Part shown: in pieces, positions 8,430 through 26,806 of the stretch
Layout: every line of letters begins with the position of its first letter
Numbering within the stretch: the stretch's first letter is position 1
Virus record (IMG/VR): IMGVR_UViG_3300044712_001255
Location: 62,001-126,000 of that record
Source of the DNA: a virus
Length of the DNA stretch: 64,000 nucleotides
Reading direction: 5' to 3' (one strand)
Position numbers and translations under genes: made by a program
Notes under the pieces: generated by a model
Database searches by the model: none
What the model was told of the DNA's origin: nothing
What the model saw: only the letters and a program-made list of their open reading frames with translations

Positions 8430-11400
8430 ATGGGACAGCTGAGATTTGGCAGCGCAGGCGTTACGGCACGAGAGATTGACCTTTCAACACCAACAACCGC
8501 AGCACCCACGGGAGTTCCCGCGGGTATCATCGGTACGGCCAACAGAGGTCCAGCATTCGTGCCGATCACTGTTGGTACTGTCGATAACTTCTATCTTGAG
8601 TTTGGAAAGACTGATGGTAAGAAGTTCGGACCGTTAGCAGTCACCGAGTGGCTGCGAAATGCCGGTGCCGTGACCTACATGAGAGTGATGGGTGTTGGTG
8701 ATGGAAATATGCGTGTTGCCGACGGCACATACGCTGGTTCTGTCAACAAGGCGGGTTTCGTTGTTGGTGAAGATCTACCGAATAGCACGAGCGGATTCTT
8801 GAGCAGAAATCCATACGCAAACTATGGTGGTCCTTCTGGCCGAACGTTCTTCCTTGGATGCCTCATGTCTGAGTCTGCTGGATCTACTGTGTTCAGTTCA
8901 GCCGGACTACAGCAGAATGGCGTGGCTGCTCCCATCATCCGTGGCGTCATCATGGCGGCTTCTGGCGTTATCTTGCGTCTATCGTCTTCAACGGCGGCGT
9001 CTTCGAATGCCCCCGCTGCGACGCTGGTTGCATCTGACGCAAATGCGCAAGGCTCATTGACGGGTTCAGTTTCACTGTTCGCCGGAGCGACTGCGAAGCA
9101 AGAATTTGTTCTGTTACTGAATGGTCACGTCGGAAACGATTCGTTGTATCCTAATGTCATCTCTGCATCGTTCGATATGACATCGAACAACTATTTTGCA
9201 AAGATGCTCAACAAGGACCCGCTGAATATCCAAAAAGCAGGTCACTGTTTGTATGCTTACTGGGATGTCTACCCGGCAACGGCAGCTGTCACAGGATCTG
9301 GCGTCATCGCAACTAGTGTTGGCGCGGGAGCGGGGGCAGCGCTTGGTTTCGAGCTCGCAGCATTCATCACAACTGGTTCTGTGGCACGCAATACCGGCAC
9401 TGCGACCGTCCCGAATTTTGAGAACTTCCAGGATAGGTTTTCCTATGCCAAGACTCCCTGGATTATCTCGCAGCGTTTTGGTGGCACGAGATACAACCTC
9501 TTTCGCCTTCATGCCCTTGACGCCGGCGCAGGAGTTTCAAACAGCGTGAAGTTCTCGATTGAGAACATCGCCGTATCAACGGACCCTGCAAACAAGTACG
9601 GTACCTTCGACATAGTCGTAAGGTCTTGGACTGATCGCGATGATTCACCCGTAGTGTTGGAGCGTTGGAGCGCAGTGGATCTCAATCCAAGCTCTGACCG
9701 TTACATTGCTAAGGTGATCGGTGATTCTTATGCGTACTTTGACTTTGATCGTTCAGAGTCTGAGCAGAAACTTGTGGTAGAGGGACAGTACGAAAATGTC
9801 TCGCAGTACATAAGAGTAGAGGTTGATTCCAACGTCGAAAATATGAGCGTAGATCCAGTGGCATTACCAGTTGGTATCCGCGGAACACATCACCTTGTGA
9901 CATCAGGATCGGTGCCTCTTACAGCGCTAGACACTGCAACTTGGATGCACAATGCAGTGACACCACCTGTGCCATTCCGCAATGACATCACTCAAGGGTC
10001 TGGTGCGACCAAGGCAGTACACCCAACGTATTACTGGGGTTACCAATTTGAACATGTAACTTCATTAGCAACAGCAAATGCGTCAGCGTTGGCAAATGAT
10101 TCAATGAAGGCACATGTCAAGTACTTCCCTGATTTCATGACCACCACTGTAAACGTGATCGTAGGTGACAATGAGGGTGATGTTGATACAACTGAACTTG
10201 GCGTCATCGACGCCGACAGATTCAACAACAACATCTTCACTCTTGAGAACTTACAGGTTGTCACAGGTTCAGACGGCCTTGCAGATCAACAGCAGTGGGT
10301 GAACGCAACGTACGTCAGAAATGGCAATATCGTTGCAAACGATGCGAACAAGACTCGTCGACTACAGACAACAGACTTCAATCAAGGCAACAAGGCATAT
10401 CTAAAGTTCAGCTTCTTTATGCAGGGTGGCTTTGATGGAACGAATATGTTTGATGTCGACGAAGCAGCATTGAACAACAATGCTATCGTAGCTGACATTG
10501 CTGACGCAAATCGTGGTCAGGCTCTCGGCCCGAACGTAAGAGCGTATACCAAGGCAATCGATATTATGGGCAACACGGTGTCAACTGACATCCAGTTGCT
10601 TGCAACGCCAGGTATTCGTGTGCCGCTTATCACTGATTACGCTTTGAACGCCACGGCAGAACGCTTCGATGCGATGTATGTCATGGATATCGAAGAGATC
10701 GATGTGATGGGCAACTTGGTGATGTCAGGTACTCAAACTACAAGTGTCCAACTCACTGCTAATAACTTCGCTGCTCGTGGATTGAACAGCAGTTTTGGAG
10801 CTGCATACTTTCCAGACGTGCTGATGACCGATCCAAACACGAAGACAAACCTCTTTGTGCCTCCATCGGTACAGGTGATGGGGGCAATGGCGCTCAATGA
10901 TGCAGTTGGTCACCCATGGTTTGCTCCGGCTGGCTTCACTCGTGGTGCCCTGCCGACAGCCCTTGAGACAAAGATCCCAATGGACCAGAGTAACCTTGAC
11001 GCTCTTTACAACGTGAATATTAACCCACTCACAGCATTCCCGGGTAACGCATCTTCTGGTACGAACCCAACAGGTGGAGTGTTGGTATGGGGACAGCGCA
11101 CAACGTTGCAGACAGCATCTGCTCTTGATAGAGTGAATGTACGTCGTCTGCTGATCGACATTCGTCGTCAGGTGCGTGAGATTGCAAACCTCATTATCTT
11201 TGAGCCCAATCGCGAATCTACGCTTGCCAAGTTCTCTGCCGCTGTGACACCACGTCTCCAGAGAATCCAGGCACTCGCAGGCCTCGAGCGTTTCAGAGTG
11301 ATGATCGATTCTTCTACCACCACTCAAGCAGACGTTGAAAACAACACCATCCGCGGTAAGATCTACATTCAACCAACGCGAACGATCGAATTCGTCTCGC

Positions 11401-11441
11401 TCGATTTCGTTGTGTCGAACAACCTCAATCAGGTCGCGTGA
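8430..11441 (+). CDS. Tail sheath protein, copy 2 (gp18-like paralogue)
   Basis: 1,003 residues, clearly homologous to the preceding gene: TAREIDLSTPTTAAPTGVPA and IIGTANRGPAFVPITV at the N-terminus, GHPWFAPAGFTRGALP and SALDRVNVRRLLIDIRRQV near the C-terminus, ending TRTIEFVSLDFVVSNN. Both ends are well conserved while the middle domains differ strongly, so the two are old paralogues, not a recent duplication. It has its own leader with TATAGTTA at 8394-8401 and AAGGAG at 8416-8421, which suggests separate expression control. Confidence 0.93.
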   Translation: MGQLRFGSAGVTAREIDLSTPTTAAPTGVPAGIIGTANRGPAFVPITVGTVDNFYLEFGKTDGKKFGPLAVTEWLRNAGAVTYMRVMGVGDGNMRVADGTYAGSVNKAGFVVGEDLPNSTSGFLSRNPYANYGGPSGRTFFLGCLMSESAGSTVFSSAGLQQNGVAAPIIRGVIMAASGVILRLSSSTAASSNAPAATLVASDANAQGSLTGSVSLFAGATAKQEFVLLLNGHVGNDSLYPNVISASFDMTSNNYFAKMLNKDPLNIQKAGHCLYAYWDVYPATAAVTGSGVIATSVGAGAGAALGFELAAFITTGSVARNTGTATVPNFENFQDRFSYAKTPWIISQRFGGTRYNLFRLHALDAGAGVSNSVKFSIENIAVSTDPANKYGTFDIVVRSWTDRDDSPVVLERWSAVDLNPSSDRYIAKVIGDSYAYFDFDRSESEQKLVVEGQYENVSQYIRVEVDSNVENMSVDPVALPVGIRGTHHLVTSGSVPLTALDTATWMHNAVTPPVPFRNDITQGSGATKAVHPTYYWGYQFEHVTSLATANASALANDSMKAHVKYFPDFMTTTVNVIVGDNEGDVDTTELGVIDADRFNNNIFTLENLQVVTGSDGLADQQQWVNATYVRNGNIVANDANKTRRLQTTDFNQGNKAYLKFSFFMQGGFDGTNMFDVDEAALNNNAIVADIADANRGQALGPNVRAYTKAIDIMGNTVSTDIQLLATPGIRVPLITDYALNATAERFDAMYVMDIEEIDVMGNLVMSGTQTTSVQLTANNFAARGLNSSFGAAYFPDVLMTDPNTKTNLFVPPSVQVMGAMALNDAVGHPWFAPAGFTRGALPTALETKIPMDQSNLDALYNVNINPLTAFPGNASSGTNPTGGVLVWGQRTTLQTASALDRVNVRRLLIDIRRQVREIANLIIFEPNRESTLAKFSAAVTPRLQRIQALAGLERFRVMIDSSTTTQADVENNTIRGKIYIQPTRTIEFVSLDFVVSNNLNQVA

Positions 11442-12731: not shown

Positions 12732-14336
12732 TCACAGGGCCAGCTCGTACAGTTGGTTGCCACACCCCCATATCTTGACCACGCCGGCTTCGTCGGCTAC
12801 CTGCTGCTCGGTCATCCCACGGGAACTGTCTGCTTTGAACTTGAAGCGGTTGAATCTTTGTTGTCCGTTCGTCCACCAGAAGCGTGGCATCGTGGAACTA
12901 ATAAGAGAAAACCCTGCTTGTTGGTACGCAGTACCATCACCACCGAGCCTTTCGTCTACGTACGATAATAGACGCTTCTTACCAGACGATTTAGCATACT
13001 CAATGGCACATGTCATAAGACGACTCGTACCGCCAGGAACAATTGTATTGAGCTTGTTTGCTGAACGAGCAATTTCAATTGCGTCCTTGTGCAATTTGTG
13101 AAATGGCGTTCTTACAGATAACGCAGCTACGATTTCACCTTCATAAATCAACCCCCACGCGGCAGATGCTAAGGTGTCTCCATCAAGGTGATTTGTTGCA
13201 AAAAATGCAATACGTTCCTTGTAATCAAGTTGCTTGATTGAACACTTTCGAGCCATTACCTTGTTCGTAATTGCGTTCAAACGAGCGCAGATCATTGATT
13301 TGACAATGTCTTGTTTATGATCCCACTCATCATCAAAAATGTGCATTAGCTTGATTCCCACAGCGCGGCAAGCATTTGTTTTTCCTTGATGATATTTGTT
13401 ATCTCTACGTGATTCGTTGTGCCAATAGATTCCGTTGAGTTCTATGGCGAGCTGATGTGACGGTATGTAAATGTCAAGCTCTCTTTTGTGAATCACGCCA
13501 CGAACATTGCGACCTACGTCAACGCCGATTATCGATTCAATCCAATCAGCAATTTGAAGTTGTGCCTTGCTGCCCACTGGATCACATGATTTGCACCTGT
13601 CATTTCTTGCAAATGCAAGGCTAACGACAGATTGCTCATTGCACTTGACACAACGCACGGTTATAGATTCGCTAAGACAATTTTTGTAGTTGCCTATTGA
13701 TTCAAGACGTAACACGTTGTTTTGTTGAAGTACTTCAACAATCTTATCATCTGTGAATCTGTTGTATCTTACCAACGTACCGGCTTCTATTGAACGCTTC
13801 AAACCGGCAGACGTGTGTTCACCACGTATTTTAATACGTTCATCAGTTTCCTTTGTAAGTCCCTTTGCCCATGATTCACGCCCAGTCAAACTTTCGCGAC
13901 GTTTTTGTGCAATTGATTGAGCAACCTCGGTGGCGTATGACGTGTAGATGTTGCCGTTGTGTCCAATTCTAAACGTCGAATAACCGCTCCACCAATTCAC
14001 CCATTTGGTTTGCTCACCACACCCACATTGGCATAACGTTGGTGATTGATTGTGTTTCTTCAACCACAACTCTTCAAGAGACATACCATGTAATGCGGCG
14101 TGTTTATCTCCTTCGGTTGAGTCGTTGAACTGCAATCGAATAACTTCATTGCAAATTGGGCAAGAGTCAGTCATTGCGTGTTTCTTGCCGATCGCAGATC
14201 TACTACAGGTTACGCACACCTTTTGTAGGCGCTCGGCATACATGCACTTGGCACGATTTTTATGATCAACATTGTTATTGCATTGTGGACAGATGCGTCT
14301 CCAGACGATTTGCCCTCCATCGTTTACTTCTATCAT
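12732..14336 (-). CDS. Homing endonuclease, Vsr/EDxHD (PD-(D/E)XK-related) type, minus strand
   Basis: 534 residues from the ATG at 14336; longer in-frame starts exist up to 14372, but the 14336 ATG is preceded by a -10-like TAGAAT 7 nt away. Domain order: N-terminal zinc-finger-like cysteine pairs (CPQCNNN, CVTC, CPICNEV), a CQCGCGEQTKW module, a SWAKGLTKETDER module, further Cys pairs (CVKC, CKSC), then the nuclease core KRELDIYIPSHQLAIELNGI YWHNE-type, characteristic of I-Bth0305I/Vsr-like phage homing enzymes. The C-terminal ~190 residues form the accessory domain often joined to it (GGTSRLM, SYVDERLGGDGTAYQQAGF). It is the only confident minus-strand gene in the window. Confidence 0.85.
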   Translation of the reverse strand: MIEVNDGGQIVWRRICPQCNNNVDHKNRAKCMYAERLQKVCVTCSRSAIGKKHAMTDSCPICNEVIRLQFNDSTEGDKHAALHGMSLEELWLKKHNQSPTLCQCGCGEQTKWVNWWSGYSTFRIGHNGNIYTSYATEVAQSIAQKRRESLTGRESWAKGLTKETDERIKIRGEHTSAGLKRSIEAGTLVRYNRFTDDKIVEVLQQNNVLRLESIGNYKNCLSESITVRCVKCNEQSVVSLAFARNDRCKSCDPVGSKAQLQIADWIESIIGVDVGRNVRGVIHKRELDIYIPSHQLAIELNGIYWHNESRRDNKYHQGKTNACRAVGIKLMHIFDDEWDHKQDIVKSMICARLNAITNKVMARKCSIKQLDYKERIAFFATNHLDGDTLASAAWGLIYEGEIVAALSVRTPFHKLHKDAIEIARSANKLNTIVPGGTSRLMTCAIEYAKSSGKKRLLSYVDERLGGDGTAYQQAGFSLISSTMPRFWWTNGQQRFNRFKFKADSSRGMTEQQVADEAGVVKIWGCGNQLYELAL

Positions 14337-14349
14337 ATTTGCTATTCTA
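14337..14349 (-). promoter_or_regulatory. Leaderless-type promoter of the minus-strand endonuclease
   Basis: On the minus strand TAGAAT (14349-14344) is separated by 7 nt (AGCAAAT) from the ATG at 14336. No Shine-Dalgarno sequence lies between them. Confidence 0.5.
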
Positions 14350-14436
14350 AAATATAGCATGCACATCGACACAAAGTAAACGATTTTGAGATCAATACCG
14401 TAATTAACTTGTTACCCACTCAATAGGAGATGACAC

Positions 14437-14928
14437 ATGGCAGCAGAAACACTTGATGTAACGTCTATGTTACCAAATCGATTTGAACCCAAGCGAAAGA
14501 ATCGTTGGATTCTTATGGTAGAGGGAATTGACGCCTACATCGTAAAGACCACCGCACGTCCCACATACGCAACTGACGAAGTTGAAGTTCCATTCGTCAA
14601 CAGCCGCCGCTACCTGGCGGGTCTCACCAAGTTTGAGACGATGGCTGTTACTCTACACGACCCGATCGCGCCGTCGGGCGCGCAGCAGATCATGGAGTGG
14701 ATTCGTCTCCATTTCGAGTCTGTGTCAGGTCGTGCAGGATACGCAGACTTCTACAAGCGTGACGTTCAGTTGAAACTCCTTGACCCGATCGGTACTGTTA
14801 TCGAACTTTGGGATATAAAAGGTGCATTCATCACAAATGCCACTTTCGGTGAACTTACGTATGAAGACGGAGGGCTTACTGAGATTTCTCTAACTCTCAG
14901 ATATGATAACGCGGTTTTGCAATTTTAA
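14437..14928 (+). CDS. Tail tube protein (gp19-like)
   Basis: 163 residues, the size of T4 gp19. It shows the family pattern: an N-terminal NRFEPKRKNRWILMVEGIDA, a PTYATDEVEVPFVNSRRYLA segment, and the C-terminal FGELTYEDGGLTEISLTLRY with the closing beta strands. It polymerises into the inner tube through which DNA passes, surrounded by the sheath encoded upstream. The start has AATAGGAGATGACAC. It is followed by a strong hairpin and is flanked on both sides by homing endonuclease genes. Confidence 0.93.
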   Translation: MAAETLDVTSMLPNRFEPKRKNRWILMVEGIDAYIVKTTARPTYATDEVEVPFVNSRRYLAGLTKFETMAVTLHDPIAPSGAQQIMEWIRLHFESVSGRAGYADFYKRDVQLKLLDPIGTVIELWDIKGAFITNATFGELTYEDGGLTEISLTLRYDNAVLQF

Positions 14929-15036: not shown

Positions 15037-15825
15037 ATGTGTAAATGTCCAATGTGTGATTATGAAAATGAAAATCTAACGTCATTATCTGTTCATTATC
15101 GAAAAAAACATAAGGGAACAGCTAAACAACTTTGTATTGAATTGTTTCATGATGGTATACAACCAACATGTAAATGTGGATGTGGTAAAGCTACTAAATT
15201 CTGGACATTGCAATTGGGATTTGCTAAATATCTTCGAGGACATGTAGCTCGAGTGCATAACAATTGGGGTCATAACGAAGATGCCCAGAAGAAAAGTCAG
15301 GACGTACGTCGTGACATGCATAAAAGAGGGGAGATTTTCATTTGGAATAAGGGTCTTTCTATTGAAACTGATGATCGTGTAGCGGCATATGGTAGATCTG
15401 GATCTCATACTCTCAAAACTGACGCCGCGTGTCAAAAACAACGATCTGAACACATGTCTACGCAATGGAAATTGGGTTGTATCGTTCCCCTTCGCGGTGC
15501 TGATCATTCTCAATGGCGAGGTGGCACTTCGGCGCTGCAGCCAGTCGTCAGATCTCGGCTTCATTATGCATGGGCATATCCCAAGCTCGCAGCATCAGGA
15601 TTTAAGTGTTCGTCTTGTGGCAGATCAGATACGCTTGAGGTACACCACGACGGTGAACGTTTTGCTGATATCCTGCACAAAGCGATTATTGAGTTAGGAG
15701 AATCAGGGGATGATTTTGAAAAGAAGTCTATTATAGCTGATTGGGTCGTCAAATATCATGTTGAAAATGATATTTCTGGCGTTGTATTGTGTCAGCATTG
15801 TCATGATAGTGCACATAACTCGTAG
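15037..15825 (+). CDS. HNH homing endonuclease with zinc-finger N-terminus
   Basis: 262 residues. A C2H2-like finger at residues 2-25 (CKCPMCDYENENLTSLSVHY) is followed by a CKCGCGKATKFW module, an IWNKGLSIETDDR module, and at the C-terminus an HNH-type nuclease core: CSSCGRSDTLEVHHDGE, then VVLCQHCHDSAHN. The Cys pairs frame the catalytic HH and the final H, as in zinc-stabilised HNH folds. The N-terminal modules are shared with the two neighbouring endonucleases, which have a different nuclease domain. This is a free-standing mobile gene inserted after the tail tube gene. Confidence 0.85.
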   Translation: MCKCPMCDYENENLTSLSVHYRKKHKGTAKQLCIELFHDGIQPTCKCGCGKATKFWTLQLGFAKYLRGHVARVHNNWGHNEDAQKKSQDVRRDMHKRGEIFIWNKGLSIETDDRVAAYGRSGSHTLKTDAACQKQRSEHMSTQWKLGCIVPLRGADHSQWRGGTSALQPVVRSRLHYAWAYPKLAASGFKCSSCGRSDTLEVHHDGERFADILHKAIIELGESGDDFEKKSIIADWVVKYHVENDISGVVLCQHCHDSAHNS

Positions 15826-15846: not shown

Positions 15847-17499
15847 ATGTCTTATGATCGTATCAAGTGCCCGATATGTAACGTAGATTTTGGGCAAGAA
15901 AAGCGATTTGTTGCTCATTGCAATGATGTCCATGGTATCGTTGCAGATGAAGCATATTATGTGCAAATTGTGTGTAATGGTACAGCTCCAACGTGTGCAT
16001 GTGGTTGTGGAAAGACAACCATGTGGAATGGTTGGAAGAAGGGATACACATCACAATACTTGCGCGGTCATAATGCTGCTGTTGATAACGTATTCTCAGA
16101 CCCAGAGCGTATGAAACGCATGGTTGAGAAGCGCGTTGACGGGTACAGATCTGGAAGAATTTCTGTGTGGAACGCCGGTCTTACAAAAGAAACCGACGAA
16201 AGAGTCGCTCGGCAGTCGGTTGCTGTTTCTAATACGTTGTCGCAAGCTTATCGATCTGGTGATCTTGTTGATTGGCGCAAGACAGATCCAGAAAAAGCAA
16301 TCGAACAAGCGAAAAAGTCATCCAATACAAAGAAGCGTAAATTTGCGTCTGGAGAATCAAAGATTTGGAACGAAGGACTTACGAAGGAAACTTCGTCATC
16401 TATCGCGTCAGCTGCAGAAAAGATTTCTGCAGCTTTTCGTAATCGCCCGGATATGGGCGCTCGAATAAAACTATCGAAAGTGAAACAACGTATCGATAAG
16501 TTCTCAGACAAATTTACGTTGGTATCTAACATTAATGAATACAAACATCATGATATTACGAGATTTGTGTTTCGTTGTAATACATGTGGTGAAGAGACAT
16601 TGAAATCATTAAATATGTTAGAATCAACTCCTATTTGTTTTCATTGTCATCCTAAGGAATCTAAGGGACAACTTGAGGTACTTGATTACATTCGTTCTCT
16701 TGGGATTAATGACGTTGTATCAAATGATCGTGCTGCTATTTCTCCAAAAGAACTAGACATTTACGTGCCATCTAAGAAGTTTGCAGTTGAATACAACGGG
16801 TTATACTGGCACAGCGAACAATTTCTTGGTAAGCATTATCATGACGAAAAGCTCTCAGCGGCAGAAAATGCTGGATTGTCATTGTTGATGATCTATGAGG
16901 ACGAATGGCGTGATCGTAGACATGTGATTGAAGGTATGATCAAACATCGTCTTAACCTTGATATTGTTCGCGTTCATGCGAGAAAATGTGTCGTGAAAGA
17001 AGTACCCGTAGAACAGCGCATTGCTTTTTTTGATTCTGCGCACCTTGAGGGTGACGTTAGAAGCGTTGTTGCATTTGGATTGTATTTTGAAGATCGACTT
17101 GTTGCGTGTATGTCGTTGCGCAGGCCTTTTCATAAAAAGTATGAAGATTATCTTGAGGTTGGAAGAAGTGCTTGTTTACCAACATACGCCATTTCTGGGT
17201 GGATTGGAAAGCTCACGAAGGCATGTAAAGAATTCGTGCGTTCTAAGGGTAAGATTGGTTTGGTGACATATGTTGATTCTCGAGTGGGCAAGGGAGAGTC
17301 GTATGCAGCTGCCGGATTCAAGCTTGTTAGCAATAACACGGGTTCACGTTTGTTTTGGACAGACTACGTGAAACGGTATAATCGATTCGCGGTACGTGCA
17401 AATAAGGCAGAAGGTATCACACAAAAGCAAGCTAGTGAAGACGCAGGCGTGGTTCCCATTTGGGGGCCCGGAAATCGTCTTTTCAAATTAGACATTTGA
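15847..17499 (+). CDS. Homing endonuclease, Vsr/EDxHD type, plus strand
   Basis: 550 residues, paralogous to the minus-strand gene at 12732-14336. Domain order: C2H2-like finger (CPICNVDFGQEKRFVAHC), CACGCGKTTMW module, two copies of the (I/V)WNxGLTKET module (near residues 111 and 176), Cys pairs (CNTC, CFHC), nuclease core KELDIYVPSKKFAVEYNGLY followed by WHSE, and the C-terminal accessory domain (AISGWIGKLT, TYVDSRVGKGESYAAAGF). It begins 22 bp after the HNH gene, probably with its own promoter (AT-rich TATAGCATAAAGATAAT just upstream). Confidence 0.85.
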   Translation: MSYDRIKCPICNVDFGQEKRFVAHCNDVHGIVADEAYYVQIVCNGTAPTCACGCGKTTMWNGWKKGYTSQYLRGHNAAVDNVFSDPERMKRMVEKRVDGYRSGRISVWNAGLTKETDERVARQSVAVSNTLSQAYRSGDLVDWRKTDPEKAIEQAKKSSNTKKRKFASGESKIWNEGLTKETSSSIASAAEKISAAFRNRPDMGARIKLSKVKQRIDKFSDKFTLVSNINEYKHHDITRFVFRCNTCGEETLKSLNMLESTPICFHCHPKESKGQLEVLDYIRSLGINDVVSNDRAAISPKELDIYVPSKKFAVEYNGLYWHSEQFLGKHYHDEKLSAAENAGLSLLMIYEDEWRDRRHVIEGMIKHRLNLDIVRVHARKCVVKEVPVEQRIAFFDSAHLEGDVRSVVAFGLYFEDRLVACMSLRRPFHKKYEDYLEVGRSACLPTYAISGWIGKLTKACKEFVRSKGKIGLVTYVDSRVGKGESYAAAGFKLVSNNTGSRLFWTDYVKRYNRFAVRANKAEGITQKQASEDAGVVPIWGPGNRLFKLDI

Positions 17500-17614: not shown

Positions 17615-18649
17615 ATGAAAAAGAAAATTGGCGTATTCATTGGTCGTTTGCAGCCTGTACACAATGCTCACCTCGCCGCCATCAATATGGCGCTTTCGGA
17701 GGTTGATCACCTGATCATAGTGCTTGGTTCTGACTGCACGGCAAAGACAATCAAGAATCCTTGGACGTCTACGGAACGTAGGAAGATGTTGTTTGCGTCT
17801 TTGAATAAAAAGTTCGTTAGCAAGATTACGTTTGTTTCGGCGAAGGATTACCTCTACAACGACAACATGTGGCTCACAGCGCTGCAGTGTTCGATGAACG
17901 TTGTATATGTTGGCGATAAACCTTACAACATAGAAGATTGCGATGTAACGTTGTATGGTCATGACAAAGATCGCAGCACGTTCTACTTGCACCTCTTCCC
18001 AAAGTGGAGCTTCAAGGAGACGGGCGACCTCGGCAACGTCAGCGCAACTATGGTGAGGGAGTGCTATTTCCGCAAGGACCTGCTCACCCTGAAGCGACTC
18101 GTTCCTGAGCCGGTGTGGAACATCATGAAGGAAGACATGAAGACAGACGAATACAATCGTCTTCATGACGAGTGGAATCACGTCATCAGCTACAAGGAAC
18201 TCTGGAAGGATGCACCGTTTCCTCCCACGTTCGTCACTGTCGATGCTGTGGTAATCAAGAGCGGTCACGTGTTGGTTGTCCGGCGCGGTGCCCAACCGGG
18301 TAAGGGGCTTGTCGCTCTTCCTGGTGGATTTCTCAATACTGGCGAGAAGATCGTTGATGGTTGTGTGAGGGAACTCAAGGAAGAGACTCGAATCTCTGTC
18401 AACAAGGATGAGCTATACAAGCGAATCGTAGACCAACGCGTCTTCGATCACCCAGACAGGTCTCTTCGTGGTCGCACAATCACCCATGCATTTTGCATCG
18501 ACCTTGGGTCTGGTCCGCTGCCGAAGGTGCAGGGAGATGACGACGCCGACAAGGCGTGGTGGATGCCGCTTCGAGATGTCCTTCGACAGGAGGAACAGTT
18601 CTTCGAGGATCACTGGCACATCGTTCAGTTTTTTGTGAGCAAGTTCTAA
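17615..18649 (+). CDS. nadM: Bifunctional NMN adenylyltransferase / Nudix hydrolase
   Basis: 344 residues with two domains. Residues 1-~180: NadM-type nucleotidyltransferase with GRLQPVHNAH (ATP-binding HxxH-type motif) and NVSATMVREC (ISTTxxR-like), which joins NMN and ATP to give NAD+. Residues ~205-344: Nudix domain with the box GGFLNTGEKIVDGCVREL followed by KEETRI; the catalytic Glu residues are kept but the usual Gly in EExGU is Arg. This fusion (ADP-ribose pyrophosphatase activity in studied homologues) is known from bacteria and T4-like phages. It forms an operon with nadV 23 bp downstream and has a GGAGAG site before the ATG. Confidence 0.93.
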   Translation: MKKKIGVFIGRLQPVHNAHLAAINMALSEVDHLIIVLGSDCTAKTIKNPWTSTERRKMLFASLNKKFVSKITFVSAKDYLYNDNMWLTALQCSMNVVYVGDKPYNIEDCDVTLYGHDKDRSTFYLHLFPKWSFKETGDLGNVSATMVRECYFRKDLLTLKRLVPEPVWNIMKEDMKTDEYNRLHDEWNHVISYKELWKDAPFPPTFVTVDAVVIKSGHVLVVRRGAQPGKGLVALPGGFLNTGEKIVDGCVRELKEETRISVNKDELYKRIVDQRVFDHPDRSLRGRTITHAFCIDLGSGPLPKVQGDDDADKAWWMPLRDVLRQEEQFFEDHWHIVQFFVSKF

Positions 18650-18672
18650 GCGTAAAGAGAGGAGAATAGACA

Positions 18673-20085
18673 ATGACTACTAACAACATCATTCTTGATA
18701 CCGATTCGTACAAGGCAAGCCATTGGAAGCAGTACCCGCCAAACACCACGTCGATGTTCAGCTACATCGAGTCGCGTGGCGGAAAGTTTGACACCACAGT
18801 ATTTTTCGGGCTGCAGTATTACATCAACAAGTACCTCACCACCCGCGTCACTGTCGACATGGTTGAGGAAGCCAAGGAATTCTACGCTGCTCACGGTGAG
18901 CCCTTCAACTACGAAGGGTGGATGCGAATTGCCACTGAGCTTGGTGGTAAGCTGCCTGTGCGAATCAGGGCAGTTCGAGAGGGCACTGTCGTTGAGACGT
19001 CGAATGTGCTTGTGAGCATTGAGAGCACCGATCCCCAGACGTTTTGGGTCGCTTCGTGGTTGGAGACCATGCTTGTTAGGTTGTGGTACCCGATCAACGT
19101 TGCAACGCTCAGTTACCACACTCGTAAGGTATTTGAACGATTCTTTGATGCGACAAGCGATGACGTCGCTCCTGGTCGTGCCATGTTCAAGCTGCATGAT
19201 TTCGGTAGCCGCGGCGTATCGAGCCAGGAATCGGCTGCGATTGGTGGGGCGGCCCACTTGATCAACTTCCTTGGAAGCGACACTGTCGTGGGAATCTATA
19301 CAGCAAACAAGTTCTATGACATTCCCATGGCTGCATTCTCGATTCCCGCGGCAGAGCACAGCACGATGACATCGTGGGGCAAGGCTCGAGAATCGGCAGC
19401 GTATGAAAACATGATCAATCAGTACGGTGGACCCGGCAAGCTCTTTGCTGTTGTGTCGGACAGCTACGACATCTACAACGCAGTGAAGAACATCTGGGGT
19501 GATGAACTGAAGCAGAAGGTGATCAACATGGGTGGTACGCTAGTCGTGCGACCTGATAGCGGTCACCCACCCACAGTCGTTGTGAATATCTTGAACATCC
19601 TCGGCGACAAGTTTGGTTTCACCACCAACAGCAAGGGATACAAGGTGCTGCCGCCGTGCATCAGGGTAATTCAGGGTGACGGAGTCAATTATGATTCGAT
19701 CTATGAGATTCTCGAGGTAATGCAGCAAGCCGGATGGAGCATTGACAATGTTGCGTTCGGAATGGGTGGAGCTCTGTTGCAGGGACACAACAGGGACACT
19801 CAGAAGTTTGCAATGAAGTGCTCGAGCGTCACTGTCGACGGTGAAGAAGTGGATGTCTACAAGGATCCTGTCACTGATGACGTGAAGCGCAGCAAGCGTG
19901 GTCGCCTAGACCTTATCAAGGTGACAATTCAAGGTAGCCACGGCAAGATTGATGTGCTTCGAACGGTGAAGTTGGCTCCTGGTGAGTTGGCACATCCCGA
20001 CACTGTTATGCAGACTGTGTACGAAAACGGCGAGGTACTGGTGCGTCAAAAGTTTGATGACATCAGAAAGAATGCGTGGGGATGA
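18673..20085 (+). CDS. nadV: Nicotinamide phosphoribosyltransferase
   Basis: 470 residues, full length for NadV/NAMPT. Family motifs: DTDSYKASHWKQYP at the N-terminus (substrate entry), HDFGSRGVSSQESAAIGGAA, IPAAEHSTMTSWG with the His that is phosphorylated in the human enzyme, VVRPDSGHPP (PRPP site) and RSKRGRLDL. It converts nicotinamide plus PRPP to NMN; NadM then makes NAD+. This pair is the salvage route that phages use to refill NAD+ when host defence systems destroy it. Start: AGAGAGGAGAATAGACA before the ATG. The cassette sits within tail genes and looks richer in G+C than its neighbours by eye. Confidence 0.95.
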   Translation: MTTNNIILDTDSYKASHWKQYPPNTTSMFSYIESRGGKFDTTVFFGLQYYINKYLTTRVTVDMVEEAKEFYAAHGEPFNYEGWMRIATELGGKLPVRIRAVREGTVVETSNVLVSIESTDPQTFWVASWLETMLVRLWYPINVATLSYHTRKVFERFFDATSDDVAPGRAMFKLHDFGSRGVSSQESAAIGGAAHLINFLGSDTVVGIYTANKFYDIPMAAFSIPAAEHSTMTSWGKARESAAYENMINQYGGPGKLFAVVSDSYDIYNAVKNIWGDELKQKVINMGGTLVVRPDSGHPPTVVVNILNILGDKFGFTTNSKGYKVLPPCIRVIQGDGVNYDSIYEILEVMQQAGWSIDNVAFGMGGALLQGHNRDTQKFAMKCSSVTVDGEEVDVYKDPVTDDVKRSKRGRLDLIKVTIQGSHGKIDVLRTVKLAPGELAHPDTVMQTVYENGEVLVRQKFDDIRKNAWG

Positions 20086-20217: not shown

Positions 20218-21156
20218 ATGACATCAAGAACAGAGAACAAGGTTTTTTCGGGAGACGCACCCGCAGTCCCAGAGGCACTTCGCCAACACATGGAGGCTGT
20301 AGGTATGGAAACTACGTCTTCTGGTCGTCCAGCGGCAGCGGCAAATCTACAACCGGGTATGTCTGAGTCGATCAATGACATGCTTGCTCGTGATTTTGGC
20401 GTAGACATCCCAGTAGAACTTGTACCGCTCCCGTCAAGGGGAATTCTGTACCCGCAAGAGCACCCATATCACGGTCGAGATCTTGTTGAGATCAGAGCAA
20501 TGACCGCTCGTGAGGAGGACATCCTTACGTCGCAGGCTCTCATCAAGAAGGGTACTGTCATTTCTGAACTCATTCGTTCGTGCGTCATTGATCGTTCTGT
20601 GAATACACAGGACCTGTTGATTGGTGATCGAAATGCGTTGATGGTTGCCATTCGAATCACAGGATACGGCCCGCAGTACGATGGCGAAGTAACGTGTTCT
20701 GAGTGTGGCGCCAAGGGAGCTCGCCAGTTTGATCTTTCGCAGCTTACAATTCGACAGTTGACATTGAATCCTGTCTCTCCCGGCGCGAATGAGTTTGAGT
20801 TTACGCTGCCACGTTTGAAGTTGCCTGTACGCTTCAGGTTCCTCACCGGCCGCGATGAGGATGAGATTTCAAAGACTGCAGAACGACAGAAGAAATTGGG
20901 TCTCTCAAGTGATTCTCTTGTCACGACCAATCTGTTGTTCAGCATTATCTCTGCGAATGGGATAACTGATAAGTCAAAACTTGCGCATCTTATCAAGATG
21001 ATGCCAGCGCAGGATTCAAACGCTCTGCGAGTCTACATGCGTCAGAATGAGCCGGGCCTTGATATGAAGCAGGAGTGCGCATGCCCAGCATGTGGTCACA
21101 CCGAGGAGGTGTCGATTCCGATCGGCATCAAGTTTCTTTGGCCTAACGCCGAGTGA
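20218..21156 (+). CDS. Baseplate hub assembly chaperone (T4 gp26 family)
   Basis: 312 residues from ATG 20218, chosen for the ATAGGAGACAG site; an upstream in-frame start at 20143 lacks one. The core matches the T4 baseplate-protein family: VPLPSRGILYPQEHPY, VEIRAMTAREEDILTSQAL, LLIGDRNALMVAIRITGYG. Two Cys pairs follow (CSECG near residue 160, CACPACG near the C-terminus), probably a zinc site. It lies between the tube and tape-measure genes, the place occupied by the lambda gpG/gpGT tail chaperones. Its last codons include CTT TGG C at 21136-21142, a likely +1 frameshift site leading into the next frame. Confidence 0.8.
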   Translation: MTSRTENKVFSGDAPAVPEALRQHMEAVGMETTSSGRPAAAANLQPGMSESINDMLARDFGVDIPVELVPLPSRGILYPQEHPYHGRDLVEIRAMTAREEDILTSQALIKKGTVISELIRSCVIDRSVNTQDLLIGDRNALMVAIRITGYGPQYDGEVTCSECGAKGARQFDLSQLTIRQLTLNPVSPGANEFEFTLPRLKLPVRFRFLTGRDEDEISKTAERQKKLGLSSDSLVTTNLLFSIISANGITDKSKLAHLIKMMPAQDSNALRVYMRQNEPGLDMKQECACPACGHTEEVSIPIGIKFLWPNAE

Positions 21157-21409
21157 TCGAGAAGCAGTCCTACTTGAACCTGCTTTCAATATGATCTATT
21201 ACGGTGGGTGGACGTGGTCTGAGTACTATCGTCTTCCCACCGCGTATAAGACGTGGTTTATTGAAAGAATTCACAAGGAAATATCTCGGTCATCTTCTGG
21301 AGACGGTGGAACACAGTCACGCGGTGTGCAACACAACACCCCTGATTTACGACAATTACAAAACAGAGCACATCCGAACGCTCCTGCGCGTTTGAGGAGG
21401 TTCTCATAG
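21140..21409 (+). CDS. gp51-like tail chaperone extension, probably made by +1 frameshift from the gp26-like gene
   Basis: This frame overlaps the end of the gp26-like gene in the +1 register. The part resembling known small tail-assembly proteins (FFGLTPSDREAVLLEPAFNM, then IYYGGWTWSEYYRLP and TWFIERIHKEI) already begins before the first ATG of the frame (21191), which has no ribosome site. The only earlier start, GTG 21092, is poorly placed. Translation through a +1 shift at CTT TGG C (21136-21142) would join it to the gp26-like protein. The stop TAG (21407-21409) lies inside the left arm of an inverted repeat that covers the start of the next gene. Confidence 0.6.
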   Translation, partial: GLTPSDREAVLLEPAFNMIYYGGWTWSEYYRLPTAYKTWFIERIHKEISRSSSGDGGTQSRGVQHNTPDLRQLQNRAHPNAPARLRRFS

Positions 21410-21453
21410 GGACCTGGCGTATAGCAGTTGATAGTTACAACAGGTCCCTATGA
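21404..21453 (+). promoter_or_regulatory. Inverted repeat covering the start of gene 21450: translational-coupling hairpin
   Basis: TCATAGGGACCT (21404-21415) and AGGTCCCTATGA (21442-21453) are perfectly complementary over 12 bp, separated by 26 nt. The right arm contains the ribosome site AGG and the ATG of the next gene; the left arm contains the stop codon of the upstream frame. Ribosomes finishing the upstream frame would open the stem. GATAGTTA (21430-21437) lies in the loop. Confidence 0.6.
21430..21437 (+). promoter_or_regulatory. GATAGTTA motif
   Basis: TGATAGTTA starting at 21429, identical to the 9-mers before nadM (17547) and the RNR gene (42183). It lies 12 nt before the ATG of gene 21450, inside the loop of the inverted repeat. 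Confidence 0.4.
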
Positions 21454-21722
21454 AAGAACAGTCTAGTAGGCTCAATGTTCGTTCCCGTTTATTACACGCA
21501 GCAGTGGGCGCTTGGTTGTTTTCCGGTGCCCATGCGCCAAAACTTAAGGGAACGTCGACACAAGTTGCAGCAGCGGCTGCCGTAGCAAGTGCGACAAAAG
21601 CTTTCAAAGAATCACTTGAAAGAGAAGATGTTTCTTTGGTGGAAGTATCAGAACTTCTGCAGAAGAAACATCTTGCTGCTGAGAAATTCAAGCAAGAATT
21701 TGGCATTGATTGGTTGCTGTGA
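21450..21722 (+). CDS. Small helical protein before the tape measure gene
   Basis: 90 residues, mostly predicted helix, Ala-rich in the middle (TQVAAAAAVASATKAF) with a basic N-terminus (SSRLNVRSRLLHAA). No recognised family. Its ATG and ribosome site are buried in the right arm of a 12-bp inverted repeat, so its translation probably depends on the upstream chaperone frame. A tail-assembly role next to the tape measure gene is inferred from position. Confidence 0.6.
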   Translation: MKEQSSRLNVRSRLLHAAVGAWLFSGAHAPKLKGTSTQVAAAAAVASATKAFKESLEREDVSLVEVSELLQKKHLAAEKFKQEFGIDWLL

Positions 21723-21736
21723 TTGGGTTGTAGCAG

Positions 21737-24700
21737 ATGGCTGATAACATCGAAGAGCTTAAAAAGCTTACTAAAGCTGCCAATGAAGCAGCTGGGGCTA
21801 TCAATGAAGCATCAACTGCATTTGAAGGTCAGGCAAAGGTCATAGAACAATTGACTGTCGCCTTCAAGGCATATTCCACGGGCAACTTCGTCAAAGATAT
21901 TCAGACAGTGTCTCAAGAGCTTCAGGTAGCTCAACAGGCAGTAAAAGCATTCTCTGATCAAGGAAAGCAACTTGAAGATCAGCTTACTAGCATTGGTAAG
22001 CAAATGACTTCCAATGATCAGAACTATCAGTCACTTGTCGAGAAACTAACCAAGATCTCAGAGACGTTTGAAAAGATGAAGAAGACGGGCGAAAAGAACC
22101 CGTTGCATGATGAAAAAGAAGGCAAAAAGGTCAACGATAACATCAAGACAATGAATCAACAGATCAAGGACCAAGTGAAAACTATTGGTCTGTTGGGCGG
22201 CGCTTTCATAGGACTCAAGGACGGGTGGAAGTCAACGCTAGCAATGGGCGGCGGCGTCATAGGCTTGTTTACTAATTTAGCTGGATGGGCAATGAAGCTT
22301 TCAATGGCTATCATTTCTATACCAGTGAATTTCTTGGGAACATTAGTACGTTGGGCTGCACAAATGCAGGGCTCAACAGAATACATGCAAAAGATCGAAG
22401 AGGTACGTGAAAAATTCGGTAACTTCCAAGAGGGCCAATCAAAAGCCATTATGGAAATGCAAAAGTCATTTGCGCGTGTGACTGAGACTGGTCTAAACGC
22501 ATGGCGCATCTACGGCGATTTAGCAGAACGTCTTGGTATGATTACCAAGATGATCGAGGGCCTTGGCGCAGCGTGGAACGTCTTTGCAGATGAATTTGCG
22601 CAAGACGGTTATCTGCAGGCAAAACGAATAAATGAATTTCAGTTAGGTCTTGGATTATCTGAGGAACAACTAAAGACTACATTGACATTGACAAAGGCAA
22701 TGGGCCAATCTGCAGGCAAAACATTGACTGACCTCACAAAGCATGTCAAGGGTTACGCAGCAGCGTATCACATCAGCCACAAGGTGATTTCACGTGATGT
22801 CGCTGAAGCAATCAAGGACGCTGGCAGATTTGGTGGTGCAACTGTAGACTCAATAACAAGAGCTTCTGTGTACGCTCAAAAATTGGGACACAACCTTAAA
22901 GATATTGCTGGAGTGATGACTGCGTTTGAGACGTTCGACACTGCGGCTGAAGGCGCAGCGAAACTATCTCAGACATTCGGCGCGACGGTTGATGCATTCA
23001 AACTTGTCAAGGCGCAAAATCCTGACGAGATGATTCAGCACTTGCGAGATGCAATGTTTGCAGCTGGTAAGTCTGCTGAAAAGATGAGCAGACAAGAATT
23101 GAAGTTGCTTTCTCAACAGTCTGGATTGACTGAAGAGGTGGCGCGTTCGGTGTTTTCAATGAACAACGCTGGCGTGTCTGTTGATGAATTGCGCAAGAAA
23201 CAAGAGGCTCAGGAAGATTCTGCTGTCACTCAAGCAAAGGCGTTGAAGTCGCTATCTGAAGACATCAAACGTATGGTGAAGCAGCAACAGCAGCAGGCTG
23301 AAACATACGTGAAGCAATTTCTTGCTGGCATGATGATGGGCATCAGGATGTCTGAAGACTTCCGTAAGTTGATGATGAACATCAAGAAGGGATTGCACCT
23401 TGTTTGGTTGGAAGGACGACAGTTCGGTATTCAATTAATGACTCAGGTGCCGCTTGTCAAGCAAATGATGAAAGCCCTGCAGGACTTCTTTGCGCCTGGC
23501 AAATATCAGAAACTTGCGCAGCAAGTACGTCACATCTTGATGAGCTTGATAACTGGCAACGAAGGCGTGCCAAATATCATGCACAAGATGTCAGCTGCGT
23601 TTATGCAGTTCTTTGATTCCAACAACCCAGCCATCAGACAAATGCTCGCTAGTGCCAAGGGAATAATGGTACGAGTGTCCAAAATAATTGGAGAGAGCAT
23701 TCTGTGGGTCACAGATCAGATAGGTGATGGTATTAAAGCACTTGTAGATATCATCTCTGGAAAGAAGCGTACTGGCGCTATTTCATTTGGGTCAGCTGCG
23801 ACGCAATTTGTTTGGGATATCATCAAACCAATTTTTGATGCGTTGTACGTTGCAGTACCCAAATTAGGGATGGCGCTTTTTGAATTATTGCAACAAGGAA
23901 TTTCGGCGTTATATACGCGTGCAACTACTGACCCTCAGATATCGTCCGTGTTGAAGAAGGTTGCTCTTGCGATTGCTGGTATTTTTGTTGTCAATATTGC
24001 GTCAAGAGCAATAATGGGCGCTATCACAGCTGGTATCACTAATGCTGTTATTGGAGGAATTGGTGGGTTAGCGTCTGGCGGCGGTATGGCAAAAATTGCC
24101 GCTGCTGGTAAAGAAGTTGCTGCTCAATCGGCAAAAACTAGTGCAGCAATGGGTAAGGAAGGTGCCACTGCTTCTGGCGCAACAACTCGTGTTGCAAATG
24201 GATGGGCGCAAGCCGCGCTTGCGCTAAAGAGAGTTTCAATTACAGATATCGGTAAAATGTTCTTGATTTTAACTGCGATCGCCGCAGGTCTCGCCGTAGG
24301 CGGGATCGCCTTTGCGGGCGCTGTAAAATTGATGGCCGAAGAATTGAAAGATACAAAGAGTGAGGATGTCGCGAAGGCAGTACTTTCGATGACTGGACTG
24401 GTGCTCAACATCGCAATATTAGCTGGTACTGTAAAATTGCTTGGAAACATCGATTTTAAGTCGCTTGGTATGGGTGCCCTTGTTATTCTTGCAATGGGTG
24501 GTGTTCTTGGTGGATTGATGTGGTTAATGGGCGCCCTTACAAAGAGTATGAAAGAGGCACACATCACAGGTTCTGAACTTGCCGCGACTGCAGGCGTATT
24601 GAAAACGCTCGCTTTAACAATGCTCATTATGGTTCCCGTGATAACGGCAGCTGCGATATTTGGTTCAGCGATTATTGCAACGTCTGGTGCGTTAGCATTA

Positions 24701-26806
24701 GCCGCAGCAGCCGGTCTCACTGCGATCACAGCGGCTATGGGAGGTCTTGTTGGCGTAACGATTGGTATTATGGAGCAATTGCGTAAGATGCCAAAGGATG
24801 ATTCGCTGCCTGAGAAAACAAAGTCATTCACAAATATCTTTGACGCAATCACAAAGATGATTTCAGTTTTAGGTAAGACGTTGGCTGATACTGCGCCGTC
24901 GATAGCTGACTTTTTGACTGGTACAAGTGTTGTGAAACGTATGCAACAATCCGTTGCGTTGATCGATGAGATCAGGGGCACAGTGACGCAGATGATCGAT
25001 AAGATCATGGTGATCGTCAATCTTTACAAGGACAATCCAACACTCGTCAAGGGCGCGGCAGCAGTTGGCGGGTTAATATCATCAGTTACAGGTTTGATGT
25101 TAGCGTTAAAGGTTCCAAAGGAACTTGCAAGTGGCAGTTTTGATCTTGGGTGGAGTGGAATCAGTTTGAAAAAGCCGTCAGAAGACGCTGCCATGGTAAT
25201 GTTCCAGATGCAACAAAGCGCGTCATCATTGATTGGTGGTGTCATTGGATTGATGAAGTCTGTTGGTGGATTGAATCTGAACGATCAAGCTCTAAAAAGC
25301 ATACCAGTCATTAGCGAATTGCTTAAGGTGATGGGTACAATTCTTGGGGAACTCACGCCATCAGCTGACATGCTTGCGCAATTCCAGAAGATCAAGACGA
25401 CGTCTGGTTCTGCAAAGGGCGGTTTATCGCTAACAGAGATTTCTCAAACAGTAACAACATCGCTTAAAGAACAAGAGCTCGATAGTGATGCGCTGATGAA
25501 GATGATGCAGTTTGCTCGTGAAAATCTCACTAAGATTTTCGAGCTATTGTCAAGTGATACTTTCAAAAAAGTTGTTGACATGACAAAGGATTGGTCTCCG
25601 AAACAACTTGATGGTATCAAGGCAATTGCGTCAATTATGTCTGCGATTGGATCAATCATGAGCGCAATGAATCAATCATTTGCAAAGGTACCAAAAGTTG
25701 AGGTCCAAGCCGCACAAGGTGCAAATGTTACTAACATCCTCAAAATTCCATTTGTTGATATCAATGAAACGTTATCAAAACTTACTGGCGATAAGGGTGG
25801 TATTAAACAATTGTTCAACACGATAATTGGACTTGCAACTGATCTTGGTAAAACAGCTGGTGGAGGGGCTGTTGTTACGTCTAGCTTGAAATCTGTAATG
25901 GGCGTGTTTGAAGGTATTAAGGGAATCATAGCATTCTTGTCTAATACGGCTGGAATGGCAACAAAGGCTTATCGTGGTGGAGTTGGTGTAGATGCCACAA
26001 CTACTGCCCTTGCTTTGACGATGCCCCTTGAGGCAATGATCATGTTGCTGCGAGGACTTAATCAACCTGCAAAAGATTCTAAATCTGGTGGTTCATTGAT
26101 GAATGAAATTGTGAACCAACTCGCTGCGGTATCAGCAGCAGGCACGATGTCAGCTGCGGAAGTGAAGAACGTTGGATCTTTAGTCCAAACGTTCAAAGAA
26201 CTACAAAAGATTCAGGCAGCATTAGGCGAAGTTGGCGCGTCATTTTCTGGAAGTAACGTTGGTGCACTTTACTCAACTTTCCCATTATTGACTGGATTCG
26301 TTGCTGGATTAGCTGCGAATATCTCGCCATTCTCTACGCAGCTGTCTGCGCTCACTCAAGAGCTCACAAAGATGGGCGTTGCTTTCAAACCAGAGATTGT
26401 CAATAAGAGCGTATTGCCGATGCTTGAAGCATTCTCGAAGGTGGTGAGTGCCGTAAGAGAAGTTCACAACAGTTTGAATGATATCAATCTTGGCAAAAAA
26501 CCAATTGCCGCTACGCTGAATTCAATCGCGGGCCAGTTAGGCATTGGTGGTAAGGTACAATTCACGCCAATTGAGAACAAAGCTGTTCAAATTCACCTTA
26601 CAGTTGAAGTATCAATGAGAGCAGCAGACGTCGAGAAGGCGATGGTCTGCAGATCAACCAGCATCATTAGAGATCAGATCAACTGGATCAGAAAGTCTGG
26701 ATCTAGCGCTGGTAAGAATGAAGAAGCATTCAAGATGGGCAATCATGATATCCCAGGTGATTTGAAGTCTGAGTACATGCCAGTTGATGCGCCAGCAGCT
26801 ACATAA
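21737..26806 (+). CDS. Tail length tape measure protein
   Basis: 1,689 residues, the longest gene in the window. The N-terminal ~150 residues are coiled-coil-like (repeated heptads from LTKAANEAAGAINEAS onward); residues ~160-200 and several stretches between ~750 and ~1,010 are hydrophobic membrane-type helices (e.g. LALTMLIMVPVITAAAIFGS), as in other tape measure proteins that cross the cell membrane during infection. It follows the tail chaperone genes, the usual order. It is far longer than T4 gp29 (~590 aa). With the known relation of about 1.5 angstrom per residue, a tail near 250 nm is implied, if the whole protein measures length. Confidence 0.85.
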   Translation: MADNIEELKKLTKAANEAAGAINEASTAFEGQAKVIEQLTVAFKAYSTGNFVKDIQTVSQELQVAQQAVKAFSDQGKQLEDQLTSIGKQMTSNDQNYQSLVEKLTKISETFEKMKKTGEKNPLHDEKEGKKVNDNIKTMNQQIKDQVKTIGLLGGAFIGLKDGWKSTLAMGGGVIGLFTNLAGWAMKLSMAIISIPVNFLGTLVRWAAQMQGSTEYMQKIEEVREKFGNFQEGQSKAIMEMQKSFARVTETGLNAWRIYGDLAERLGMITKMIEGLGAAWNVFADEFAQDGYLQAKRINEFQLGLGLSEEQLKTTLTLTKAMGQSAGKTLTDLTKHVKGYAAAYHISHKVISRDVAEAIKDAGRFGGATVDSITRASVYAQKLGHNLKDIAGVMTAFETFDTAAEGAAKLSQTFGATVDAFKLVKAQNPDEMIQHLRDAMFAAGKSAEKMSRQELKLLSQQSGLTEEVARSVFSMNNAGVSVDELRKKQEAQEDSAVTQAKALKSLSEDIKRMVKQQQQQAETYVKQFLAGMMMGIRMSEDFRKLMMNIKKGLHLVWLEGRQFGIQLMTQVPLVKQMMKALQDFFAPGKYQKLAQQVRHILMSLITGNEGVPNIMHKMSAAFMQFFDSNNPAIRQMLASAKGIMVRVSKIIGESILWVTDQIGDGIKALVDIISGKKRTGAISFGSAATQFVWDIIKPIFDALYVAVPKLGMALFELLQQGISALYTRATTDPQISSVLKKVALAIAGIFVVNIASRAIMGAITAGITNAVIGGIGGLASGGGMAKIAAAGKEVAAQSAKTSAAMGKEGATASGATTRVANGWAQAALALKRVSITDIGKMFLILTAIAAGLAVGGIAFAGAVKLMAEELKDTKSEDVAKAVLSMTGLVLNIAILAGTVKLLGNIDFKSLGMGALVILAMGGVLGGLMWLMGALTKSMKEAHITGSELAATAGVLKTLALTMLIMVPVITAAAIFGSAIIATSGALALAAAAGLTAITAAMGGLVGVTIGIMEQLRKMPKDDSLPEKTKSFTNIFDAITKMISVLGKTLADTAPSIADFLTGTSVVKRMQQSVALIDEIRGTVTQMIDKIMVIVNLYKDNPTLVKGAAAVGGLISSVTGLMLALKVPKELASGSFDLGWSGISLKKPSEDAAMVMFQMQQSASSLIGGVIGLMKSVGGLNLNDQALKSIPVISELLKVMGTILGELTPSADMLAQFQKIKTTSGSAKGGLSLTEISQTVTTSLKEQELDSDALMKMMQFARENLTKIFELLSSDTFKKVVDMTKDWSPKQLDGIKAIASIMSAIGSIMSAMNQSFAKVPKVEVQAAQGANVTNILKIPFVDINETLSKLTGDKGGIKQLFNTIIGLATDLGKTAGGGAVVTSSLKSVMGVFEGIKGIIAFLSNTAGMATKAYRGGVGVDATTTALALTMPLEAMIMLLRGLNQPAKDSKSGGSLMNEIVNQLAAVSAAGTMSAAEVKNVGSLVQTFKELQKIQAALGEVGASFSGSNVGALYSTFPLLTGFVAGLAANISPFSTQLSALTQELTKMGVAFKPEIVNKSVLPMLEAFSKVVSAVREVHNSLNDINLGKKPIAATLNSIAGQLGIGGKVQFTPIENKAVQIHLTVEVSMRAADVEKAMVCRSTSIIRDQINWIRKSGSSAGKNEEAFKMGNHDIPGDLKSEYMPVDAPAAT

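Follow-up and report, generated by a model that had tools for sequence, protein, structure and literature searches.

A conserved YTT TGG C junction predicts +1 frameshifting between short and long forms of a gp26-like phage tail assembly chaperone

The window, the whole 64,000-nucleotide stretch analysed here (positions 62001-126000 in the 324-kb record of a giant tailed phage, a single metagenomic contig), contains a gp26-like gene that very probably gives rise to two tail assembly chaperones, a short form of 312 aa and a long form of 396 aa, through prfB-like +1 ribosomal frameshifting. That shifting happens, and its rate, we infer from the sequence. The features of the locus are listed below.

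8430-11441: sheath-like ORF, upstream of the tube-like gene.
14437-14928, plus strand: tail-tube-like gene, assigned by size and by its position downstream of the sheath-like ORF.
20218-21156, plus strand: gp26-like tail assembly chaperone, short form (TAC-N), 312 aa, matching PF12322 (T4_baseplate) and phrog_150.
21104-21111, plus strand: Shine-Dalgarno-like tract AGGAGGTG, 24 nt 5' of the slip codon, anti-Shine-Dalgarno energy -15.7.
21108-21129, plus strand: predicted hairpin GGTGTCGAT-TCCG-ATCGGCATC, 9 bp, -11.0 kcal/mol, with 6 nt between it and the slip codon.
21136-21142, plus strand: predicted +1 slip site CTT TGG C, at which P-site CTT would re-pair with TTT while TGG is in the A site; YTT TGG C in 202 of 208 +1 loci.
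21154-21156, plus strand: 0-frame stop codon TGA, read from the sequence, end of the short form.
21140-21409, plus strand: +1-frame C-terminal domain (TAC-C), 89 aa plus stop codon TAG at 21407-21409, readable only after a shift; long form 396 aa.
21737-26806, plus strand: presumed tape measure gene, 1689 aa, assigned by size and position only, as in relatives.

The 3' end of the 0 frame reads ATC AAG TTT CTT TGG CCT AAC GCC GAG TGA, and the +1 frame from 21140 begins with GLTPSDREAVL and stays open to the TAG. The initial annotation had placed a change of reading frame at CTT TGG C and had claimed that the downstream frame has no usable start codon. The frame change was present as stated, and the sole ATG, GTG or TTG upstream in the +1 frame was a GTG at 21092, without a Shine-Dalgarno sequence before it.

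The gp26-like protein matched PF12322 with an E value of 2e-14 (hmmscan) and phrog_150 with an E value of 3.6e-18. It is followed by a 90-aa ORF and the 1689-aa ORF, and this gene order matched in the isolates Mel-JY01 (L004) and immuto (L005); Pfam and PHROG searches with the tape measure candidate gave no match. The 90-aa ORF (21450-21722) has no family match, and a small ORF is found at the equivalent place in Mel-JY01. The gene had been described as lying between the tube and tape measure genes. Downstream this stood, with the presumed tape measure gene in place; the direct 5' neighbours are instead NAD-salvage and homing-endonuclease-like genes, and the tube-like gene lies farther upstream. 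The NAD-salvage pair inserted between the tube-like and chaperone genes (17615-20085) consists of a cytidylyltransferase-like and NUDIX protein followed by a nicotinamide phosphoribosyltransferase. Homing-endonuclease-like ORFs with CxCGCG motifs stand on either side of the tube gene (12732-14372 on the minus strand, 15037-15825 and 15847-17499 on the plus strand). No tRNA genes were found in the window.

Relatives were gathered by tblastn and IMG/VR scans, giving 221 non-redundant loci, and a profile of the extension was searched in all three forward frames beside each gp26-like stop codon. Of the 221 loci, 208 carried the TAC-C domain in an overlapping +1 frame and therefore have the coding capacity for short and long forms with a common N-terminal domain. 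YTT TGG C was present at the junction in 202 of these 208 (183 TTT and 19 CTT), and thus the comparison with related phages that the initial annotation had proposed showed a conserved site. At each of the other six junctions (L006, L009, L010, L012, L186 and L241) there were TTT codons able to re-pair forward. The first 153 loci with YTT TGG C formed 41 clusters at 60% protein identity. The +1 relation was also observed in Mel-JY01 and immuto, as well as in the distant isolates Rhodothermus RM378 (TTT TTT TGG AAT), Streptomyces BRock and LuckySocke, Bacillus SP-15, Listeria LIS04 and Streptococcus GXN1. CTT sites occurred at at least three places on a 106-row tree, and the window fell in a supported clade (n = 9) with CTT TGG C in all members.

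The 96 representatives used for the following comparisons were picked for YTT TGG, and the invariance of that motif among them is by construction; the wobble base of the slip codon is the better test. A Phe codon before TGG was TTT in 82/82 cases, compared with about 74% TTT in gene bodies, and a Leu codon before TGG was CTT in 14/14, compared with 22%, with relatedness ignored in both comparisons. TTC before TGG was found in none of the first 159 +1 loci examined. In the same representatives, the 0-frame protein was conserved through F-F-W-P and then ended after a few variable residues. The +1-frame residues were not conserved 5' of the slip site, where 28/96 had a stop at codon -9 and 16/96 had one at codon -5, and were conserved from F-G-L on.

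In the window alone, both TTT-C and CTT-T are able to re-pair one base forward. However, the sequence is TTC TTT TGG in 19 of the 153 relatives examined first, and there only the codon directly before TGG can re-pair in +1, indicating that this codon is the slip codon; the slip from CTT to TTT suggested earlier had thus named the right one. These data are consistent with a model in which P-site YTT would re-pair on TTT while the A site presents TGG, and the predicted product of the window would read ...IGIKFL-GLTPSDR.... Most ribosomes would read on to the TGA at 21156 and make the short form (TAC-N), while a fraction would stall when CTT occupies the P site and the A site holds a Trp codon, TGG, still to be decoded. 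During this stall the Leu tRNA would move forward by one base and pair with TTT, in the manner of prfB; translation would then resume at GGC in the +1 frame, giving the long form (TAC-N plus TAC-C). With 74 copies of YTTTGGC in the 324-kb genome (37 for a reversed control), the heptamer must be only part of the signal. Nor is it proof by itself, because CTT TGG C has been retained in locus L029, where the domain starts from an ATG as an independent gene.

Upstream of the slip site, the AGGAGGT that the initial annotation had pointed out at 21104-21110 was confirmed at those coordinates. With positions counted from the first base of the slip codon, the core of the Shine-Dalgarno-like tract was at about -33 to -25 in the relatives, and about 7 nt closer in one clade. 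The best anti-Shine-Dalgarno energy in -40 to -14 was -10 kcal/mol or lower in 70% of the 96 representatives, compared with 0-2% in five control windows, and Glu was encoded by GAG in 29/31 cases at codon -11 and 38/47 at codon -10, compared with 33%. The hairpin region (-24 to -3) had a mean energy of -4.7, compared with roughly -0.5 to -3 elsewhere. When synonymous codons were permuted within columns, the hairpin region gave z -7.8 and 16 other windows gave +1.1 to -4.0, in a control that does not fully remove relatedness and in which one other window reached z -4.0; the same permutation on 41 coarser representatives gave z -5.6. RNAalifold returned only two pairs for the hairpin, because its register varies among sequences, so a fixed-register count was used together with the synonymous permutation. 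With a fixed 5-bp register in 59 sequences, covariation was 0.176, compared with 0.089 or less when the register was slid.

In three clades, the tract was found in 69%, 92% and 52% of sequences (0% in control windows), with hairpin z values of -4.5, -4.6 and -3.0. Both elements were weak in 16 held-out representatives found with a query from one AT-rich clade (tract 31%, hairpin z -1.3), and neither is universal. A downstream stimulatory RNA structure gave no clear signal in the two intervals searched (mean z -0.40 at +9 to +69, compared with -0.63 for the control, and -0.92 at +9 to +109, compared with -0.18). The tract and the hairpin probably stimulate the shift, and folding of the hairpin, which lies between tract and slip site, would bring the two effectively nearer to each other.

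The same tract could be taken as a ribosome-binding site, from which TAC-C would be made independently through initiation within the gp26-like gene. It is indeed a strong Shine-Dalgarno sequence, an ATG, GTG or TTG stands at 0-frame codon -7 in 35/96 representatives, and TAC-C is a gene of its own in five loci (L025, L029, L142, L210 and L236). However, a protein begun at codon -7 would be read in the 0 frame, and a +1 shift would still be required to reach TAC-C. In 78/153 loci the +1 frame, followed to three codons beyond the slip site, contained no ATG, GTG or TTG, which excludes separate initiation in about half of the loci, and the sub-clade with the tract nearer the slip site has no start codon behind it. 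An internal start also leaves the fixed wobble bases of YTT unexplained, and we consider it quite improbable.

Transcriptional slippage or a -2 shift can yield the same frame as a +1 ribosomal shift, and most relatives have a run of at least seven T's at the site. The runs in the window (TTTCTTT) and in the 19 relatives with TTC TTT TGG (TTCTTTT) are, however, broken and shorter than polymerase slippage usually requires, and a -2 shift in TTC TTT TGG would put the Phe anticodon on TCT, which makes these routes slightly less probable still. Because the sequence comes from a single metagenomic contig, an indel introduced during sequencing or assembly might also be thought of, as might gene decay; both were refuted by the recurrence of the frame change in 208 non-redundant loci, as well as in the isolates Mel-JY01 and immuto.

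The predicted +1 shift is replaced by other arrangements in some relatives, and on the 106-row tree these derived exceptions sit inside or beside +1 rows. Loci L070 and L207, which are 88% identical and lie on separate contigs, read AAT TTT TTC TGG CCG, containing a U UUU UUC heptamer, and carry the domain in the -1 frame; nested among +1 phages, they represent an apparent switch of frameshift direction. The extension was in the -1 frame also in L008 and several isolates. In L025 and L029 the domain is encoded separately, by a gene whose ATG follows the stop codon by a few bases, and L025 has lost the slip site (TTC TTG TAT). A free-standing GIY-YIG homing endonuclease ORF lies between the halves in the IMG/VR contigs L142 and L210, where the slip site has been lost (TTC TTC TGG), and a GIY-YIG ORF is inserted likewise in L236, also an IMG/VR contig, which keeps TTC TTT TGG. 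The downstream gene of L142 and L210 reads in a single frame VPLGLNLF-NITPKTAP or IPLGLNMF-GITPENAP, with the pattern (I/V)PLGLNxF-(G/N)IT, and by its sequence is a hard-coded version of the predicted +1 junction. A group I intron in the endonuclease-bearing loci, in which splicing would take the place of shifting, was considered and rejected, as no Rfam hit was obtained. In the derived lineages, slip site and architecture had changed together.

Taken as one signal, these elements may form a previously undescribed three-part +1 cassette in a large environmental phage group. It would consist of a Shine-Dalgarno tract acting in elongation about 18-26 nt 5', a spacer hairpin, and a YTT TGG C site whose A-site codon is a sense codon; a derived TTT TTC TGG lineage carries the extension in -1. 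We put this forward tentatively, with slightly less than even confidence. The folded hairpin would cut the effective distance from tract to slip codon, or might pull the message forward while folding. If the cassette is real, a change at one wobble base may accompany the switch of direction.

To place the encoded domains, TAC-N and TAC-C were modelled with AlphaFold as separate chains. The TAC-N model (pLDDT 91.5) had the HK97 tail assembly chaperone (2ob9) as its best PDB match, with a middling Z score of 5.8 and an rmsd of 3.5 over 81 residues (next unrelated match 3.1; Foldseek E not significant), and it also found many gp26-like proteins in BFVD. TAC-C was predicted as a three-helix core (pLDDT about 90), without a significant match in BFVD, and the window's TAC-C sequence alone found nothing in PHROG, Pfam or phage tblastn searches. 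T4 gp26 and gp51 both match PF12322, gp26 consisting of this family only and gp51 of PF12322 plus about 48 aa. The fused profile aligned with gp51 through its C-terminus (86%, E 5e-6), better than with gp26 (46%). Homology of TAC-C to the gp51 C-terminus, taken independently, was weak and was set aside (7% probability for the extension alone), so that the term gp51-like, used for the extension by the initial annotation, suits the fused protein and only weakly the extension. Gene order and the short/long design point to a chaperone function for the gp26-like gene. The proposed likeness to lambda G/GT holds in gene order and in the short and long architecture, and the middling HK97 match may add to it. 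By analogy with lambda G/GT, the short form would coat the tape measure protein and the C-domain of the long form would recruit tube subunits.

Frameshifting is reportedly conserved in several T4-like groups. T4 itself shares with the window the PF12322 family and the short and long forms, but has two genes, gp26 short and gp51 long, where the window has one gene and a predicted shift. Lambda G/GT and other chaperone frameshifts of the -1 kind occur on a slippery heptamer, whereas the shift in the window would be +1, and no sequence similarity to them is claimed; unlike the X XXY YYZ type, with its extension in -1, the window has its extension in +1. The prfB site of release factor 2, CTT TGA C, is alike in having YTT followed by T, P-site re-pairing on TTT and an upstream Shine-Dalgarno-like tract. 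It differs in having a stop codon in the A site, where the window and 202 loci have the sense codon TGG, and in a Shine-Dalgarno sequence 3 nt from the slip codon, compared with about 24 nt and an intervening hairpin in the window. The prfB frameshift serves autoregulation, whereas that of the window would serve to make two products. In the T4 gene 60 bypass, an upstream stem-loop takes part in forward ribosome movement, which resembles the arrangement here, although gene 60 involves a 50-nt bypass and other signals.

G-T frameshifting has been described as widespread except in T4, and the tail chaperone of halovirus HSTV-2, a myovirus with an archaeal host, as "very likely +1" (PMC5009743), a predicted shift in the same direction and gene as in the window. 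T4-like phages are known to have tail assembly chaperone genes, some with a short gene and a longer fusion gene (Vladimirov, Gautam and Davidson 2022, Virology 566:9-15, as cited in PMC12846349 and PMC10885494), and their poly-T signals are described as -1 (Vladimirov et al. 2022, as quoted in PMC12846349), in contrast to the window, where the predicted shift is +1 at YTT TGG C and a tract and a hairpin lie 5' of it. The claim that a +1 site in a T4-like pair would be new is therefore upheld in part: the concept of short and long chaperones in T4-like phages was already known in 2022, while the +1 YTT TGG C site and its tract and hairpin look new, judged against that study as represented in the papers citing it.

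A predicted sense-codon +1 site conserved in more than 200 phage loci comes with a natural series at one place, of +1, -1, split genes, separation by homing endonucleases and T4-style duplication, which lets the evolution of recoding direction be tested, and the same holds for a distant Shine-Dalgarno tract and hairpin as drivers of +1 shifting. In public genomes, the long chaperone is missing or appears as stray short ORFs: in Mel-JY01 (L004 3342-3578) and immuto (L005 3336-3446), the extension is annotated as a separate hypothetical protein or left unannotated.
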